A stretch of DNA of 64,000 bases from Nymphaea colorata. Lineage: Eukaryota > Streptophyta > Magnoliopsida > Nymphaeales > Nymphaeaceae. Both the position numbers and the translations under genes were made by a program. The notes beneath the pieces are model-generated. The model had not been told where the DNA came from. It worked only from the letters and a program-made list of their open reading frames with translations, and did no database searches. This document shows, in pieces, positions 36,620-62,500 of this stretch. The stretch is taken from positions 19,012,854 to 19,076,853 of the forward strand of contig NC_045147.1 in assembly GCF_008831285.2 (NCBI RefSeq), read 5' to 3'. The stretch's first letter is position 1. Every line of letters begins with the position of its first letter.

Positions 36620-37002
36620 AGTGGTTGCATGTCTTGTTTGCTCCAGTGCCTTTACCCGTGACACACACACATATACCTACTCTGCTTCTGTCTTCTGCTC
36701 TTCTTATTGGTAACCTTGAGCTGTAGCGTTTTCTTTCTTAACTAAGTGTTAAGAGTGATACCATCTCAGATCTTTCCTTCTCTACCATCAATTTTATGAT
36801 TAGTAGAAGCTACGGAGCATTAACATTGGTAACCGCTCAGTAGTGCTACCTCAAATCAACTGCAGAAAAAGGTGGTGCCCGTGTGCTGGTTCTTTGTAGT
36901 CATTCTAGTGACTCTCCTGCCAAACTTAGAAGACAAAGTTAACTCAGCAGAAAACAAGCCAAATTAGAGATTACCTTCCTTATTTAGAGCTTCCTACAAG
37001 AT

Positions 37003-38871
37003 ATGGGTGTCACCAATGCTACCGTTTTGGTGTTGATCATCGTCTTCTGTTCTCTGTTGGAAGCCAGCTTTGTGCTGGGAAGAGTCCATAGACACAGTAA
37101 GAAGCATCATGATCCTGACTCCGGTCTTTATGGTTCTATATCTCAACCACCTGCTTACCCTCCCTCGGAATCTCCAATTCCTGGTGATGGTGGTAATTCG
37201 AGCTCGGACTCCAGTACCTTTGATGTGAGATCTTTCGGTGCAGTCGGAGACTGCGTGACAGATGATACAAGTGCATTTAGATCAGCTTGGGAAGCTGCCT
37301 GTAAAACTGAGTATGGTGTCCTTCTTGTTCCTTCTGGCTACACTTTCACAATCACCTCTACCATCTTCTCAGGGCCTTGCAGGAATGGATTCATATTTCA
37401 GGTGAGTGCAACTTGTTGATATCTGGGCATTAAGACAATGTTATGCCTGTTACCTTATACTAGAATTCACAGGGTTCTGATTTTTCTCTGTTCCAAATGA
37501 GAAGGTAGATGGAGTGCTAATGCCACCAGATGGACCAGATAACTGGCCTAAAGAAGACAGTCCACGACAGTGGCTTGTGTTCTACAAGGTAGATGGAATG
37601 ACTCTTCAAGGGGAAGGACTAATTGAAGGCAATGGACAAAAGTGGTGGGATCTTCCATGCAAACCACACAGGGTATCATAAATTATCATCCCTCGTCAAT
37701 TTCATTTTGATTTTGTCACTACATTTTCTAAAATCAAATGGCATTGACTAGATTTTGTTCTTTTACACTTTTCAGGGCCCAAATGGATCTACATTACACG
37801 GGCCATGTGATAGCCCCGTAGTAAGTAATGAACAAACTCTTCTTCGAGATGAAAATCTAAACACAGAGTAAACCTGTTTCTAAAAAATCAATCTTTGACT
37901 ACAGGCCATTCGATTTTTTGAGAGCTCGAACTTGACATTAAGGAATATCAGAATCCAAAACAGTCCGCAGTTTCATGTCAAATTTGATGCATGCGATAGT
38001 GTGCTTATCGACAGTGTTTCCATTTCCTCCCCTGCATTGAGTCCCAATACCGATGGAATCCATATTCAGGACTCAAAGTATGTTGGAATATACAATTCAC
38101 TCATAAGAAATGGTAAGGATGGTTATCAGTTAGTATGATTAGCATGCTTTTATCTTTTGTTTCAATTTTTTAGTCTGAGTCAAATTCAATGCTGGAACAG
38201 GTGACGATTGCATATCAATTGGACCAGGCTGCTCAGATGTCGACATAGAAAATGTGACGTGTGGACCTAGTCATGGCATTAGGTACATTAGTTTCTTTTC
38301 CCTTCTTACGCTTCTCTTCATTCTTCCAACAGTCTTTACTCTGTTCTAATGTGGGATATCAATTGCCAGCATTGGAAGCCTCGGATACCAACATTCACTG
38401 GCCTGTGTTCGGAACATATCAGTCTCAAATTCAGTAATTCGGAATTCAGACAATGGTGTTAGGATCAAAACATGGCAAGGAGGGATGGGGACAGTGCGAT
38501 CCATCACCTTCACCAATGTTTTTATGGAGAATGTAAGGAATTGCATCATTATAGATCAATACTACTGCTTGTCAAAGGAATGTAGGAACCAGACATCTGC
38601 TGTACAAGTTGCAGATGTTGCATACAGAAACATTAAAGGAACGTATGATGTCCGGAGTCCGCCGATTCATTTTGCATGCAGTGATGCCATGCCCTGTGCC
38701 AATATAACACTGGGAGAAGTGGAGCTTCTCCCTGCAGAAGGAGAGATGGTAGCAGATCCTTTCTGCTGGAATACTTATGGCGGACTGGAGACTCTCACTA
38801 TTCCCCCCATATCATGCTTACAGGATGGAGCTCCTCTATCTCTCACGGAGGGGTTTGCTTATGGTTGCTGA
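37003..38871 (+). CDS. Polygalacturonase 1 (GH28), secreted, six exons
   Basis: Exons 37003-37401, 37505-37672, 37776-37820, 37905-38112, 38201-38282 and 38370-38871 join into 467 aa with GT-AG introns. The N-terminus is a signal peptide ([21 protein letters not shown], cleaved near VLG) followed by a His/Lys-rich and Pro/Ser-rich stretch ([20 protein letters not shown]). GH28 landmarks: NTDG (252-255), GDDC (274-277), SHG (297-299) where most members have GHG, and RIK (332-334). The catalytic Asp residues and the His are all present. The overall plan, including the basic linker, resembles the Arabidopsis At1g48100 (PGX3) group. The enzyme hydrolyses de-esterified homogalacturonan in the wall. 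It faces the same way as the second polygalacturonase 8 kb downstream. It looks intact. Confidence 0.96.
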
Positions 38872-46808: not shown

Positions 46809-49800
46809 ATGGTTGAGGTGTGTGCAGGGAAAATGACAGCCTCTAGGTTGAGGAGATGCTGGCTGCTCTTCCTTGTTGTGCTTGTCTGCTGCTTGAGCTT
46901 CTCAGTGCATGGCCATAGATCTTCTCCTCCTTCCGTTGGTGTTCACCGCAGGAAAAGTCATGGTGGCGATATCGGTGGAAAACATGGAGCGTCCAAGAGG
47001 AGAGGACACAGACAGAGTCACGGTGGCAACACCGGCGTCTCCGGTGCCGCTGCTGGTCGTGCTGATGGCGGTCCGGGTCTTGGCGGCAGCGGGAAGGTCT
47101 TCAACGTCGTCGAGTTCGGCGCTGCTGCCAATGGAGTGACCGACGACACCAAGGTCAGCTGCCCTCTCTCTCCCTGTCATTCATGAATACGGATCGTAGC
47201 TTGGTAACGTGAAACGCCACCAGAACAACTCATTTTCAGGTTAAGTTGCATGAAAGAGCAGGTGGCCGGATTTCCGGCCAAATCTTCTTTCTCCATATTA
47301 ATTCTTAGTCCTGTAAAATGGCAACATTGCAGGCATTCCAGTCAGCATGGGCAGCTGCCTGCAAAGTCGCAGGATCGACTGTCCTAATCCCGGCCAAGCA
47401 TGAGTTCCTTGTTGGTCCGATCTCCTTCTCCGGACCTAACTGCCAACCTAACATCAATTTCCAGGTAATGTGTGAGATTGTCCCGTTCTTTATCATGCAC
47501 AATATCAGCAGAATGCACGCCGATTTCTCATTTCATATATATGTGAACTTCATGATCTTATATACCATCCTTGTGTTCTATTCATTCGTGTAGTCATAAA
47601 AGCATTCTGTTGAAACGTATTTAATACAAAAATAGATATACAGAACTTCACAAGTTGATTATCTACGTGAATATTTCCACGATAGTTCTTCAACTAGTTG
47701 GTGATCAAGCACAACTGTGAAGAGTGGACACCCGTCTCATTTCTTATGGAATAAACATAACGTCATTCTTGAAAGACAGCGAAAACCCAGGTAGCTGCCT
47801 CTCGTGATACCACGCTTTTTGCCTCCTCTTTTTTTTGTTGGAAAGCCGAACGGCAGCTCGTGATCTTCCTTGCTATTCTCTCCTCATTGTCGTCAGCAGA
47901 ATTTTTGAATGCAGCAATGGCTTTCTTACTTCCTTTTCGTTAAGGCACCAAGAAAAAGAACAAAGGCGATTACCTTTAGTACTATTCTTAAAGCTGGCCC
48001 TTAGTAGTTTCTCTTTTCTGAAGGACTGCAAATTGTTCATCCACTTGGTAGCAGGTAACAGATCAATGTCATCCAACGGGTGCTTTTATTTTCTCTAAGG
48101 TGAATGAAGGTCAAGTGTGTAAAGATTTATATAAAGTTACAGATTACAGATGAGTTCAAACTTTGATATTGCATGTTGCATACACAAAATAACATTTCTT
48201 CACATAAATGCTATACATTGGCAGACTTTTATGCGTCCAACTTGATGTAAAGATGCATTGTTTTTTAAGTATACGTCGAGGTAGGGTTATTTTTGGGTGT
48301 CCCACACCTCATGGACTTGCTTTTGGACAGAGGGCACATGGGCCTCGAGCCCCACAAAGTCAGATTATTGTCTAGCATCTCTATGTTTTTGTCTTCACCT
48401 CTTTTGTCACCCCATACATTCGGAATTATAAACTGCTGATCTTAAGTTTGTGTTGTTCTAATCTTGCGCATTGAATGCGTTCTTGTTTGTTCTTTCTATG
48501 TTTTAATTTATATTATGTTTTAATTGATGAAAATATAACATAGTTGGTCGAATTGATGGATCATATGTCGTTTGTTTAATTTTCATTGAACGTATAACTC
48601 TAAATTCCGTCCAAACTCCGTGAGAAAGGAACTACACTTAGGTCTCGATGCAGCCCACTTCTTCTTCCACTAAATTCACCAACAACCAGCATTTAATTAT
48701 CGTGAAGTTAAAAACCATAGAAAATGTCCAACAAATAAAACTATTAGTAAAGTTTTTCTTCACTTACCGGTTCTTTAATTTTTCATAAATTCATACTTAG
48801 AACATTTTCTTTTCAGTGTTTTGTCTTCATGAATATCAATGTATGAATCCGCCGGTAAGCGGTTAGGATTGTAGACCGGGGCGGGCTCAGTCAGGACGTT
48901 GCTCACAATTGCTTTCTTCTTAGCAGGTGGATGGAATTATCTACGCGCCTGCCGACCGTAAGGCGTGGCGTGGGTTCGAATTGCTTCAGTGGATCCAATT
49001 CACCAAGCTAAGGGGGATAACCGTTACCGGACAGGGAACCATTGATGGCCGCGGATCTGCTTGGTGGGGCGAAGCCAAGATCCAAGACCCGGTAAATTCT
49101 TCGTTCATATACAAGTAAATTCTACTACATGCCAACGTATGTGATACTGGCCTCATCACTGCTACTCCTATGTAACTTTGAAAATAATGCGAATCCGATT
49201 TTGTTAATGAAATATCATCAAGCTTTATGACCCGACCCGTTTTCAAGCCGCCAGATCACATTCTAAACGGACCTGAATCTCATCCGTTCATTCTTAGTGA
49301 TGAATGATTACCATTGTTCACAATACGGAGCAAAGAAATACTGGATTTTACCATTATACAAGAAAAAAAAACGCATTTGAGATCTTCAGTATGTGTAGTA
49401 AACAGATGCTTCTTAATTTTCTACATGACACTGAATTTGTATTTGTTGTTTTGCAGGTTGATGATTATATTTCGACAGTAGAAATCGCAGAGACAAGGCC
49501 AACGGTGAGATCGTAATCTAAACCACAATTTGAATGTTAATAAGCATTCATCTTTCGTCTTTGTTTGCATGATGAGTTCTTATTAATCACACTTAACATT
49601 GGGAACCAGGCGCTTAGATTTTATGGGAGCTTTGATGTGAGCGTGACAGGGATCACCATTCAAAACAGCCCACAGTGCCACCTCAAGTTCGACAGCTGCA
49701 CCGGCGTGACCGTCACCAATGTCTCCATCTCCTCGCCGGCGACCAGCGCCAACACCGACGGCATTCACCTCCAAAACTCAAAAAGTGTTCTTCTTCATCA

Positions 49801-51117
49801 CTCCAAAGTGGCCTGTGGTATGAAACACTTCTACTTTTTCTTGTGTTTCTTTTCAAGTCATTCAGTTAATATGATTGGATAACTCACAAGCTGGTATGAC
49901 ACAAGTAAGTAATGTTTTTCAAAGACAAACAAAATGCAAGTCATTCAATGAAATTGTTTTCAAGGCAAATTATTTTATGTGCAACATCAAATATTCTGCT
50001 AAGTTAAACAACTATATGTTTAATTGCCAAAGAACATAAAAGTGGGGAAAGGAAATGGGTATTTAGATATTCATGCTTGAGTACTCGTTAAACTACTCAA
50101 ACAACCCCATGCCTGCTACAACTATACACTCCTCAAAAAAAAAGGGAGGATTTGGGTATTTTAGAAACTTTTTATAATGAAGTGTATTTTTTTAGTCTTT
50201 TACTTTTGTTTGCAATCCTTTTTTATGTTTTTAAAGACTTATTTTTTCATTGTACAAAGGGTATTTTGGTCATTACACACTCCTCAATCAATTTATGTCA
50301 CTAGTATTCCTAATGCCTTGCATAGGTGATCAGGGACAGAGCTAAGGTAGGGTCCGTTTGGGCCATGGTCACACCTTTAATATATATATATTTTTAAAAA
50401 TTACATGTAAATTTTAAAAAATTTCACTTGTTCTATATAAAAAATTTTGAAAAATTATATTTAGGTCCTAGTCAAAATTTAGAAACTTTAATTTAAACCG
50501 TCTCGTGAAAAATTTCTGACTCCACCTCTGTAGGTGACGACTGCGTATCGATCCAAACTGGCTCCTCCAACATCAACATCCGCAACCTAGATTGTGGCCC
50601 GGGCCATGGCATAAGCATCGGTGGGCTCGGCAGGGACAACACCAGGGCCTGTGTTTCTAACGTCACGGTCCGCGACATCAACTTGTATGGGACGATGACA
50701 GGAGTTAGGATCAAGACCTGGCAAGGTGGGGCTGGCTGGGTTCAAGGAGTGACATTCTCTAACATTGTGGTCTCTGAGGTCCAGTTTCCCATTGTAATAG
50801 ACCAGTACTACTGTGATAAGGCCACCTGCAAGAACCAGACCTCCGCCGTCGCCCTCGCCGGCATCACCTACCAGTGGATCAGGGGATCCTACACCGTGAA
50901 ACCGGTGCACCTGGCTTGCAGCGACAGCGTGCCGTGCAACGGCGTCATCTTGAACAACATACAGCTTCATCCTGCGCAGGCGGCGCGGCGCATAGCCCAG
51001 CCCTTCTGCTGGAGGTCATTTGGGATCTTGCAAGGCCCTTTGGAGCCTCCAATTCCATGTCTGCAAGTAGGGAATCCATTCAAGGGCCACATCCAATCTA
51101 GCATGGATATGTGTTGA
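46809..51117 (+). CDS. Polygalacturonase 2 (GH28), secreted, six exons
   Basis: Exons 46809-47153, 47333-47464, 48927-49091, 49457-49504, 49610-49817 and 50534-51117 join into 493 aa. An alternative start at 46833 would shorten the N-terminus by 8 residues and put the signal peptide (RRCWLLFLVVLVCCLSFSVHG) closer to the start. A Gly/His/Arg-rich linker follows (HRRKSHGGDIGGKHGASKRR). GH28 landmarks: NTDG (278-281), GDDC (300-303), GHG (323-325) and RIK (358-360), all complete. Exons 5 and 6 have exactly the same coding length as the matching parts of polygalacturonase 1 (208 and 584 bases). It has an intron after DDTK that gene 1 lacks, and lacks the intron that gene 1 has inside GIS. The last intron (49818-50533) ends in a hAT-type insertion whose target duplication carries the acceptor. 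The reading frame is intact. Confidence 0.96.
50331..50530. mobile_element. 200-bp hAT-type MITE at the 3' splice site of polygalacturonase 2 intron 5
   Basis: The left end CAGGGACAGAGCTAAGG and right end reverse complement CAGAGGTGGAGTCAGAAA form an imperfect terminal inverted repeat. The flanks TAGGTGAT (50323-50330) and TAGGTGAC (50531-50538) match at 7 of 8 bases. The interior is AT-rich with ATTACATGTAAATTTT-like sequence. Each target duplication contains TAG|GTGA, i.e. the splice acceptor and the first codon bases of the GDDC exon. No coding capacity. Confidence 0.85.
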
Positions 51118-51952: not shown

Positions 51953-54069
51953 ATGCCGCTCGGCAAGTACTACTGCGACTACTGCGACAAGCAGTTTCAG
52001 GACACGCCCTCGGCGAGGAAAAGGCATCTGCAGGGCCTCCAGCACCAGCGGGTTAGGGCCCTGTGGTACGACTCCCTTTCCCGGCCCTCTCCCTTCAACG
52101 ATCTGCCTCAGTCCGAGAAGCCAATCTGCAATTCATTCGCTAGGACGGTATTATTTGATTCCTTTTATCTTGTCATTCGCATTTCATTTTGTTGGTCGTC
52201 CTTTAATTGTCCTATTTCATTGCTATCCGGATCATTTGGGGCATGAAATTTGATTTCTCTAAGTGAGCCCGTATATGGGTGTTTCTTTTCTCTTGCTTTT
52301 GTCTCAGCATAGATGGTAGTCTCGAGTCTTGACTTTAGAAGAACCACGATTACTCTGTTCTGGTTTTTGCTTCACGAATGTCATGTTTTTGACATTTAGA
52401 CGAGGACATTCGTATACGAAATGATGATAGTGGACTTCGACTAGAGGAAAAGGAAATGATGGCGACTGTCCTTTGGAAGTTTACTTGAATGCCTTTCATC
52501 TAACGAACGTTTTCAATTTCAACGAGTCTTTTAGTTTTTACGCTTTTCCTTCTTGTTATTAGACACCATCGGCTTGGTATTCGTAGGATGTTGGTTTCTA
52601 TTTGCCTTCATACGTGGTAGTGAGATTTTTAAAAATCTGAACTTCATCTCCTTGTTCCTTTGGTTCTTTAAAGTTCTGAATTTCATTTACTTCGGTTGGT
52701 TAAGATTTTTAAGGTTCTGAAGTTCATCTCCTTGTTCCTTACGGTTCTGTTGTTACTTTTACTCTTCCGTTTGGGGATTGAAGGGGTTCTGTCGGTACGG
52801 CGATGGGTGCAAATATTTTCATCCTAAGCAGAATCTTCAACCAAGTGGCCAAGCTATGCCAGGCAAGTCCTTTCTGAATGCTTCAACTTTTATAGCTGCA
52901 ACTCTTGTTTATCGATATGCATTGTTGAAACCTGTGTATGAGTTCCTTCACACGAGTATCTACAAATATGAAAATTAGTATGTACGTGCTTGGATGATTT
53001 ACAACTTCTTCCCTGCTCCCCTCCCCTCCCCAACAACTTCTTTTGTGTGTGCATGATTCATGCCTTATAGCGTATGTATTGAAATTTTTTGGTTTCAAAC
53101 ATAAGATCTTGTTCTCTAACCTCCACCAGTCTTGTTTTGTTTACTTGACCTGGTTGACATCCATTTAGTATGCGAGAATTATCTTGAAAATTTGAAACTG
53201 TTACATTTGCTGTAGACAACATAAATATTGTGAAGTTAGAGCAGTCTGCTTTAAAACACTTCATGTTGTTTTGGGACCTTAACATTTTTTTTAATAATCT
53301 TTAGATTCAATCATGATATTTTCTGAAGATTTCTGGATGTGTATTTATGATACTAGTTTATCTATGATCTCTCCTCACTCCCTAAGTACCTCATTGGTTC
53401 AATTGGTATATTGATCACTGTTATCGGAACGATATCCTGCATATAGTTAATTCTGGAAGAAAAGGAGTGTCTTGAATAGCTTAAGTGAAAAATGGGATAT
53501 GTGGGGACTGGGGGTAGATATGGTGGATAAAAAGTGAGTCACACGTGACATGTCAAATACAACACAGAGCAGGTCGCGTAGCTGGTTGAGCTAGGGGCCT
53601 GTATTAAGGCAGGTCTCTAGTTCGATTCCCGTGGGCGCTATGTTCCTGTGTCTTAAGGCGGTAGGGCGCGGCATCTAAGCTGAAGGGTGCACCGTTGCTA
53701 TCGCTGACACCGACGCAGCTCAGGACCCCGGAGGCAGGGAGAATGGGGGGGCCTTCGGGCCTTTTTCGGGCGGTGGGATTAATACCCCTTGCTCACCCGG
53801 AAATACAACACAGAGCAACAAGCTTCGGTGTACCTTGTTGTAATGCTTTCTTTTAAGTTCCTATAAAAATAACTCATCATGTCTAACACAACATTATTAT
53901 TTCTGCCCTCTTTCTTCTCTTTAGGTTTGTTTCCTTATATCTACTTTTTGGGTGTGCAGGGAGTCTGATCAAAGATGGCATGGGCATGTCTCTAGCAAAT
54001 TTACCCCCTTCATTGATGCCTCCTCCCGATGGAGGGTATCCACCCCTGCCTTTCATAGACTGGGGGTGA
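51953..54069 (+). CDS. ZMAT5 / U11-U12 snRNP 20 kDa-like protein (C2H2 U1-type plus CCCH zinc finger)
   Basis: Exons 51953-52147, 52784-52862 and 53960-54069 join into 127 aa. Residues 1-40 (MPLGKYYCDYCDKQFQD, then RKRHLQGLQHQR) form a U1-type C2H2 finger as in U1C and ZMAT5. Residues 59-79 form a CX8CX5CX3H finger (CNSFART|GFCRYGDGCKYFH) that is split by intron 1. The tail ANLPPSLMPPPDGGYPPLPF then IDWG is the conserved Pro-rich end of plant members, which supports the last exon. Human ZMAT5 is the 20K protein of the U11/U12 di-snRNP, so a role in minor-spliceosome intron recognition in the nucleus is inferred. Intron 2 (52863-53959) starts with GC (CCAG|GCAAGT) rather than GT and contains a SINE. 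The reading frame is intact across all junctions. Confidence 0.93.
53555..53817 (+). mobile_element. tRNA-derived SINE (53572-53800) with perfect 17-bp target duplication
   Basis: AAATACAACACAGAGCA occurs at 53555-53571 and again at 53801-53817, bracketing a 229-bp GC-rich body. The 5' part looks like a tRNA: an A-box-like GCGTAGCTGGTTGAG, then a B box AGTTCGATTCCCG about 35 bases on, with GTGGGCGC closing the stem region. The 3' part (GGGCCTTCGGGCC, GGGATTAATACCCC, CACCCGG) resembles in style the 3' region of Au-type plant SINEs, but there is no poly(A) or T tail. It lies inside intron 2 of the zinc-finger gene in the sense orientation. Perfect flanking repeats imply a fairly recent insertion. 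Confidence 0.88.

Positions 54070-62329: not shown

Positions 62330-62500
<171 letters not shown>

Follow-up and report, generated by a model that had tools for sequence, protein, structure and literature searches.

In maize, exon insertions of the hAT element Ds, for example in waxy alleles, are spliced from the mRNA and give several aberrant products. The terminal inverted repeats of hAT transposons are short and follow a CAGRG-type consensus. Introners, as characterized in a 2022 paper, use splice sites that are recruited wholly or partly from the target duplications of DNA transposons (PMC9860276). Another candidate precedent, PMC3014980, was set aside, as it concerns maize p1/p2 rearrangements, and titles and abstract openings, mostly outside subscription journals, yielded no description of a MITE that duplicates an existing acceptor.

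The case described here comes from Nymphaea colorata, for which 409 Mb, 14 pseudo-chromosomes and 31,580 genes are given in the genome paper (PMC7015852). The window, i.e. the whole stretch of DNA that was analysed, is 64,000 nucleotides long (G000:C10:19012854-19076853), and the genome searched comprises 408 Mb in 783 contigs, with contigs C1-C14 at 12.6-44.0 Mb. The reading that we prefer, with a probability of roughly 0.82, is that a MITE landed on an ancestral splice acceptor of a polygalacturonase gene, that the right-hand acceptor, built by the target duplication and the end of the element, is the main productive splice site, and that the gene is constrained.

A polygalacturonase gene with an element at an ancestral intron border

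The features are as follows, in window positions:

46809-51117, + strand: polygalacturonase gene (GH28), 6 exons, 493 aa; hand-drawn model with a predicted start codon
46809-47153, 47333-47464, 48927-49091, 49457-49504, 49610-49817 and 50534-51117, + strand: its exons
49818-50533, + strand: intron 5, 716 bp, phase 1, with the element inside it; donor TGTG/GTATGA, acceptor TGTAG/GTGACG
50110-50284, no strand assigned: second high-copy repeat in intron 5, unrelated to the MITE; 39 further scored places at 73-81% identity
50323-50330, + strand: left target-duplication copy TAGGTGAT, with the original-side acceptor AG at 50324-50325; direct reading
50331-50530, + strand: hAT-like MITE, 200 bp, 71% AT; ends in agreement with the family, composition measured
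50516-50530, + strand: element end CTGACTCCACCTCTG at the place of the right acceptor's upstream tract; 11/15 pyrimidines
50531-50538, + strand: right target-duplication copy TAGGTGAC, with the predicted productive acceptor AG at 50532-50533

The gene model was drawn by hand from homology and splice signals. Its spliced 493-aa frame is open from ATG to stop, all five introns are GT-AG, and the product matches Pfam Glyco_hydro_28 (PF00295) with E=1e-84. In agreement with membership of GH28, the translation contains NTDG, GDDC, GHG and RIK, of which we take NTD(G), (G)DD(C), GHG and RIK to be catalytic or typical motifs of polygalacturonases. In the C2 and C11 paralogues an intron lies at KTWQ/GG, and in PG1 and PG3 one lies at GHGI/S; the last exon of the present gene (50534-51117) has neither, so that an intron must have been precisely lost or gained at least once near the MITE. 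Among tandem neighbours, PG1 lies in the window (about 36988-38871), and a third polygalacturonase gene follows just past the right end (G000:C10:19077879-19078932, in L041). Elsewhere in the window there is the start of a gene at 51953-52150, presumably of the U11/U12 snRNP 20K (ZMAT5) zinc-finger type, and a long (TA)n microsatellite (>120 bases) at 62369-62496.

The element is bounded by worn terminal inverted repeats (CAGGGACAGAG / CTCCACCTCTG), and the 8-mers on its two sides are identical at 7/8 bases, the single mismatch being T against C; pairs of 8-mers 208 bases apart that agree at 7/8 or better occur at 46 of 63,784 window positions. Across the intron 5/exon 6 border, the duplication takes in the last three bases of the intron and the first five of the exon. 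The sequence-only reading had placed a 200-bp hAT-type MITE at the end of intron 5, with an 8-bp target across the intron/exon border and an acceptor on each side of the element, and all of this was borne out: the coordinates are correct to the base, the family has hAT-like ends, and the junction 49817/50534 is reproduced in the gene model. The unrelated repeat at 50110-50284 stops about 40 bases before the left acceptor and, since the MITE is also present, intron 5 is host to two insertions.

The loci read contain 23 distinct GDDC sites, including that of the present gene (the count covers loci read, with polygalacturonase matches that have no locus left out). An intron at the same codon position is found in 10 of the 22 other sites, each ending CAG/GN-GAY, and in the remaining 12 the sequence continues as exon. 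Because these 10 paralogues splice at the identical codon position, the border is to be regarded, on sequence comparison, as ancestral. The present gene has TAG in both duplication copies, versus CAG in the 10 paralogues; since both copies share it, the change from CAG to TAG would most simply predate the insertion. The T/C mismatch is synonymous, GAC and GAT both encoding Asp. It had been suggested that the left copy, with T for C, has already diverged. The mismatch itself is real, and this polarity is possible but only weakly favoured, as the Asp codon of the 10 intron-sharing paralogues is GAC in five and GAT in five, yet the two nearest have GAC.

The MITE family and the probable source of the splice signals

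A genome search with the element gave 2750 first-look candidates, of which the best 40 were scored, and the resulting listing holds 40 places, some full-length and some partial, as well as 8 fragments. The 39 other places among these best-scored candidates are 78-86% identical to the element; all of them were taken and aligned, and a consensus was built on best-scoring matches. In local alignments that are blind to the ends, the first base of the element (+/-1) is the alignment start in 27/39 other copies, and its last base (+/-1) is the alignment end in 21/39. The alignments of three copies reach beyond the start of the element, by 2, 2 and 6 bases, and those of two copies run 3 bases past its end, the remainder being short. 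Flanking 8-mers are identical at 6/8 or better in 21/39 other copies (1.9% when shuffled) and at 7/8 or better in 14/39 (1.0% when shuffled); among the 18 copies that fall below 6/8 at alignment-set ends, several are truncated or misaligned at one end.

The family ends, CAGGGGCGGAGCC...CTCCGCCCCTG, are short terminal inverted repeats of CAGRG type, and the majority form is CAGGGGCGGAGCCAAGG...GAAAAATTTCTGGCTCCGCCCCTG; CA opens 26/39 copies and TG closes 32/39. The copies are short, non-coding and numerous, with an 8-bp target duplication, as is typical of hAT-type MITEs. By its ends and the length of its duplication, the element is best classed as hAT-like.

At the right acceptor, the upstream tract is transposon-derived (AATTTCTGACTCCACCTCTG/TAG), with 14/20 pyrimidines at -23..-4; the left acceptor has 12/20. 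Such composition is common in the family: the last 15 bases of the 39 other copies have a mean pyrimidine content of 71% in the present orientation and 74% in the opposite one, the window standing at 52% (SD 17), and 60% or more is reached by 38/39 and 39/39 copies respectively, against a background of 37%. TG ends occur in 32/39 copies in this orientation and 26/39 in the reverse. Given these counts, an insertion in either orientation would put a pyrimidine-rich stretch, usually with TG, ahead of a duplicated YAG. The tract at 50516-50530 may act in splicing. A branch site built into the family as a general feature was considered and ruled out: CTGAC lies 15 bases before the end of the element, the family majority there is CTGGC, and CTGAC is present there in 5/39 other copies too, which makes it neither the rule in the family nor peculiar to the present copy. 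A scan for CTRAY at -60..-13 (the CTGAC site falls outside it) found the motif in 1/39 copies in either orientation, versus 13% of background windows. As a ground for the choice of the right site, base composition gives mixed evidence. Windows of 100 bases favour the right acceptor, where AT content drops from 74% to 42%, the change at the left one being from 69% to 68%; windows of 50 bases do not tell the two apart (left, 62 to 42%; right, 64 to 46%); and when steps of 60 bases are ranked, the right site (0.18) exceeds the left (0.12), but is itself exceeded by an AG within the element (0.20).

The proposed course of events is a composite one. The sequence shows that a non-autonomous hAT-like MITE inserted at TAGGTGA(C/T), a target straddling the ancestral intron 5 acceptor, and that the target-site duplication left TAG/GTGA on both flanks. 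The right copy runs into the intact exon, and the left copy and the element would now in effect form the 3′ end of intron 5, lengthening it by 208 bp. The AG and the start of the exon would come from the duplication; the right inverted repeat of the element would contribute a tract rich in pyrimidines, the TG that precedes TAG and perhaps a branch site. Most productive splicing thus probably runs from 49817 to 50534, and the gene seems to have been under coding constraint ever since the insertion, as the age of the element and the open frame suggest. The earlier claim that the duplication restored the splice site holds for the AG and the exon start (8 bases), and fails as regards the duplication being the sole source, since the upstream tract is the transposon's inverted repeat; credit for the border would be shared, duplication and transposon end jointly restoring the site.

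Two acceptors, probable coding constraint and competing readings

Joining 49817 to 50534 gives an uninterrupted 493 aa that reads ...VACGDDCVSIQTG... and includes GDDC, and with 49817 joined to 50326 the frame closes after 305 aa, short of GDDC (...VACGDQGQS*), in keeping with the earlier claim that only the right acceptor of the two yields GDDC. The Pfam GH28 scores are 284.9 bits for the right product versus 105 bits for the left, and use of the left acceptor would result in a truncated protein of 305 aa without the catalytic Asp pair. The stop of this left form sits in the last exon of the gene model, because the gene is without the later introns of its relatives. Nonsense-mediated decay (NMD) by the exon-junction rule spares last-exon stops, though a long 3′ untranslated region may also set off decay; with no later intron in the model, the exon-junction rule would not apply to the left form. 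The left acceptor is the original one, intact and first in order, and it retains an upstream tract of its own, together with a CTAAT motif, so that some or much splicing may use it.

The K80 distance between the element and the family consensus is 0.186 (0.166 outside CpG/CHG), the fourth highest of 40 rows, and a quick tree built from 40 copies gives the element a terminal branch of 0.118. It is thus old, at about 0.12-0.19 substitutions per site, a rough figure because the consensus comes from best-scoring matches and the true parent subfamily may differ. Neutral decay of the 1482-nt frame was simulated with point changes only (4000 runs each at 0.118 and 0.166), and the frame stayed stop-free in 0.8% and 0.2% of runs, respectively; smaller ages are far less telling, with 6.6% stop-free at 0.06 and 25% at 0.03. 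Since so few neutral runs stay open at the age of the element, the right acceptor has probably been in working use since the insertion. That the insertion has long been tolerated, as the sequence-only reading had it, agrees with these figures (0.118-0.186 substitutions per site, frame open). The dN/dS ratio to the C2 paralogue is 0.07 (NG86, 262 codons), which is weakly useful, as dS is saturated at 3.0 and the ratio mostly reflects time before the insertion; it covers C2, dS to C11 not being computable.

Three other readings bear on these observations. The insertion may have damaged the gene, leaving a young pseudogene that still looks intact, and the intact, ancestral left acceptor would suit such an outcome; a divergence of 0.118-0.186 in the element, with a 493-aa frame that has neither stop nor frameshift, and the 0.2-0.8% of neutral runs that stay stop-free make it quite improbable. 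Still harder to credit is a chance 7/8 match around an element that merely lies within the intron: one mismatch in eight is what such a coincidence could look like, but the match falls exactly at the boundaries set by the family, and 8-bp duplications (6/8 or better) accompany 21 of the 39 other copies, which leaves this account with next to no standing.

Use of both acceptors is compatible with the preferred reading and is a tangible possibility, although one that we would bet against. The insertion would then have made two alternative acceptors, separated by 208 bases, out of one constitutive site, and the truncated protein of the left form would be inactive and serve as a damper of dosage. 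Both acceptors read TAG/GTGA, with similar tracts and YTNAY motifs at similar distance, and a message whose stop lies in the last exon would escape NMD under the junction rule; on the other side, no sign of conservation of the left copy was found in this one genome.

Expected frequency and comparison with known systems

With 31,580 genes (PMC7015852) and an assumed 3-5 introns per gene, the chance that an acceptor AG falls inside the 8-bp target of a random insertion is 0.16-0.27%. This corresponds to 1.6-7.5 acceptor cases before selection per 1000-2750 insertions, where 2750 refers to candidates, not confirmed copies; with that many expected, a single such insertion is unsurprising and, on rough arithmetic, an expected kind of event.

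A pattern search for the element end followed by YAGGT, with up to 3 mismatches, gave 51 matches including the present copy. YAGG stands right at the element end in 9 others, of which 7 were read, and these represent about 6 independent places, because L086 and L087 have near-identical flanks. The duplication is clear in two of the seven, L085 (8/8) and L088 (7/8), where the frame after YAG is at most 24 codons, and in two more, L082 and L084, the frame after YAG is open for 50 and 54 codons, respectively, but neither a left end nor a duplication stands out. Pfam searches with E up to 1 gave no match for the frames of these four, and among the seven copies read, a small sample with short frames, there was no second family copy at a convincing exon border. 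The 50-codon open frame of L082 (G000:C6:8751700-8752120), which we take to resemble plastid ycf2, lies immediately next to the element end there, Pfam giving no match.

The locus illustrates cleanly how a splice-border insertion can be made survivable by a duplication of just 8 bp, and it separates the share of the duplication (AG and exon start) from that of the transposon end (upstream tract). A wider idea, which we put forward as speculative and unlikely to hold, is that this hAT-like family carries latent 3′ splice sites in its inverted repeats, whichever way a copy is oriented: a pyrimidine-rich end with a final TG would give TGYAG/G wherever the duplicated target opens with YAG/G. Insertions at acceptors would then be systematically buffered, and the family would be enriched at the 3′ ends of introns compared with donors. 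If other hAT families are alike, genome-wide counts of acceptor versus donor insertions would test such a buffering rule.

Among described systems, maize Ds shares with the present element its hAT nature, the 8-bp duplication and the contribution of splice sites by both element and target; it differs in that Ds lies in exons, whereas the present MITE sits on an acceptor that was already there. Intronic hAT MITEs of plants are alike in size, ends, length of target-site duplication, copy number, AT-richness and lack of coding capacity, and unlike in that the present copy lies exactly on the acceptor. The likeness to introners, as described in PMC9860276, is that a non-autonomous element with the marks of a DNA transposon is associated with splice sites that are part target and part element. 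Introners, in the same source, create new introns in many copies, whereas the present MITE has lengthened an existing one: intron 5 is not a new intron in coding sequence, because it is shared with 10 paralogues.
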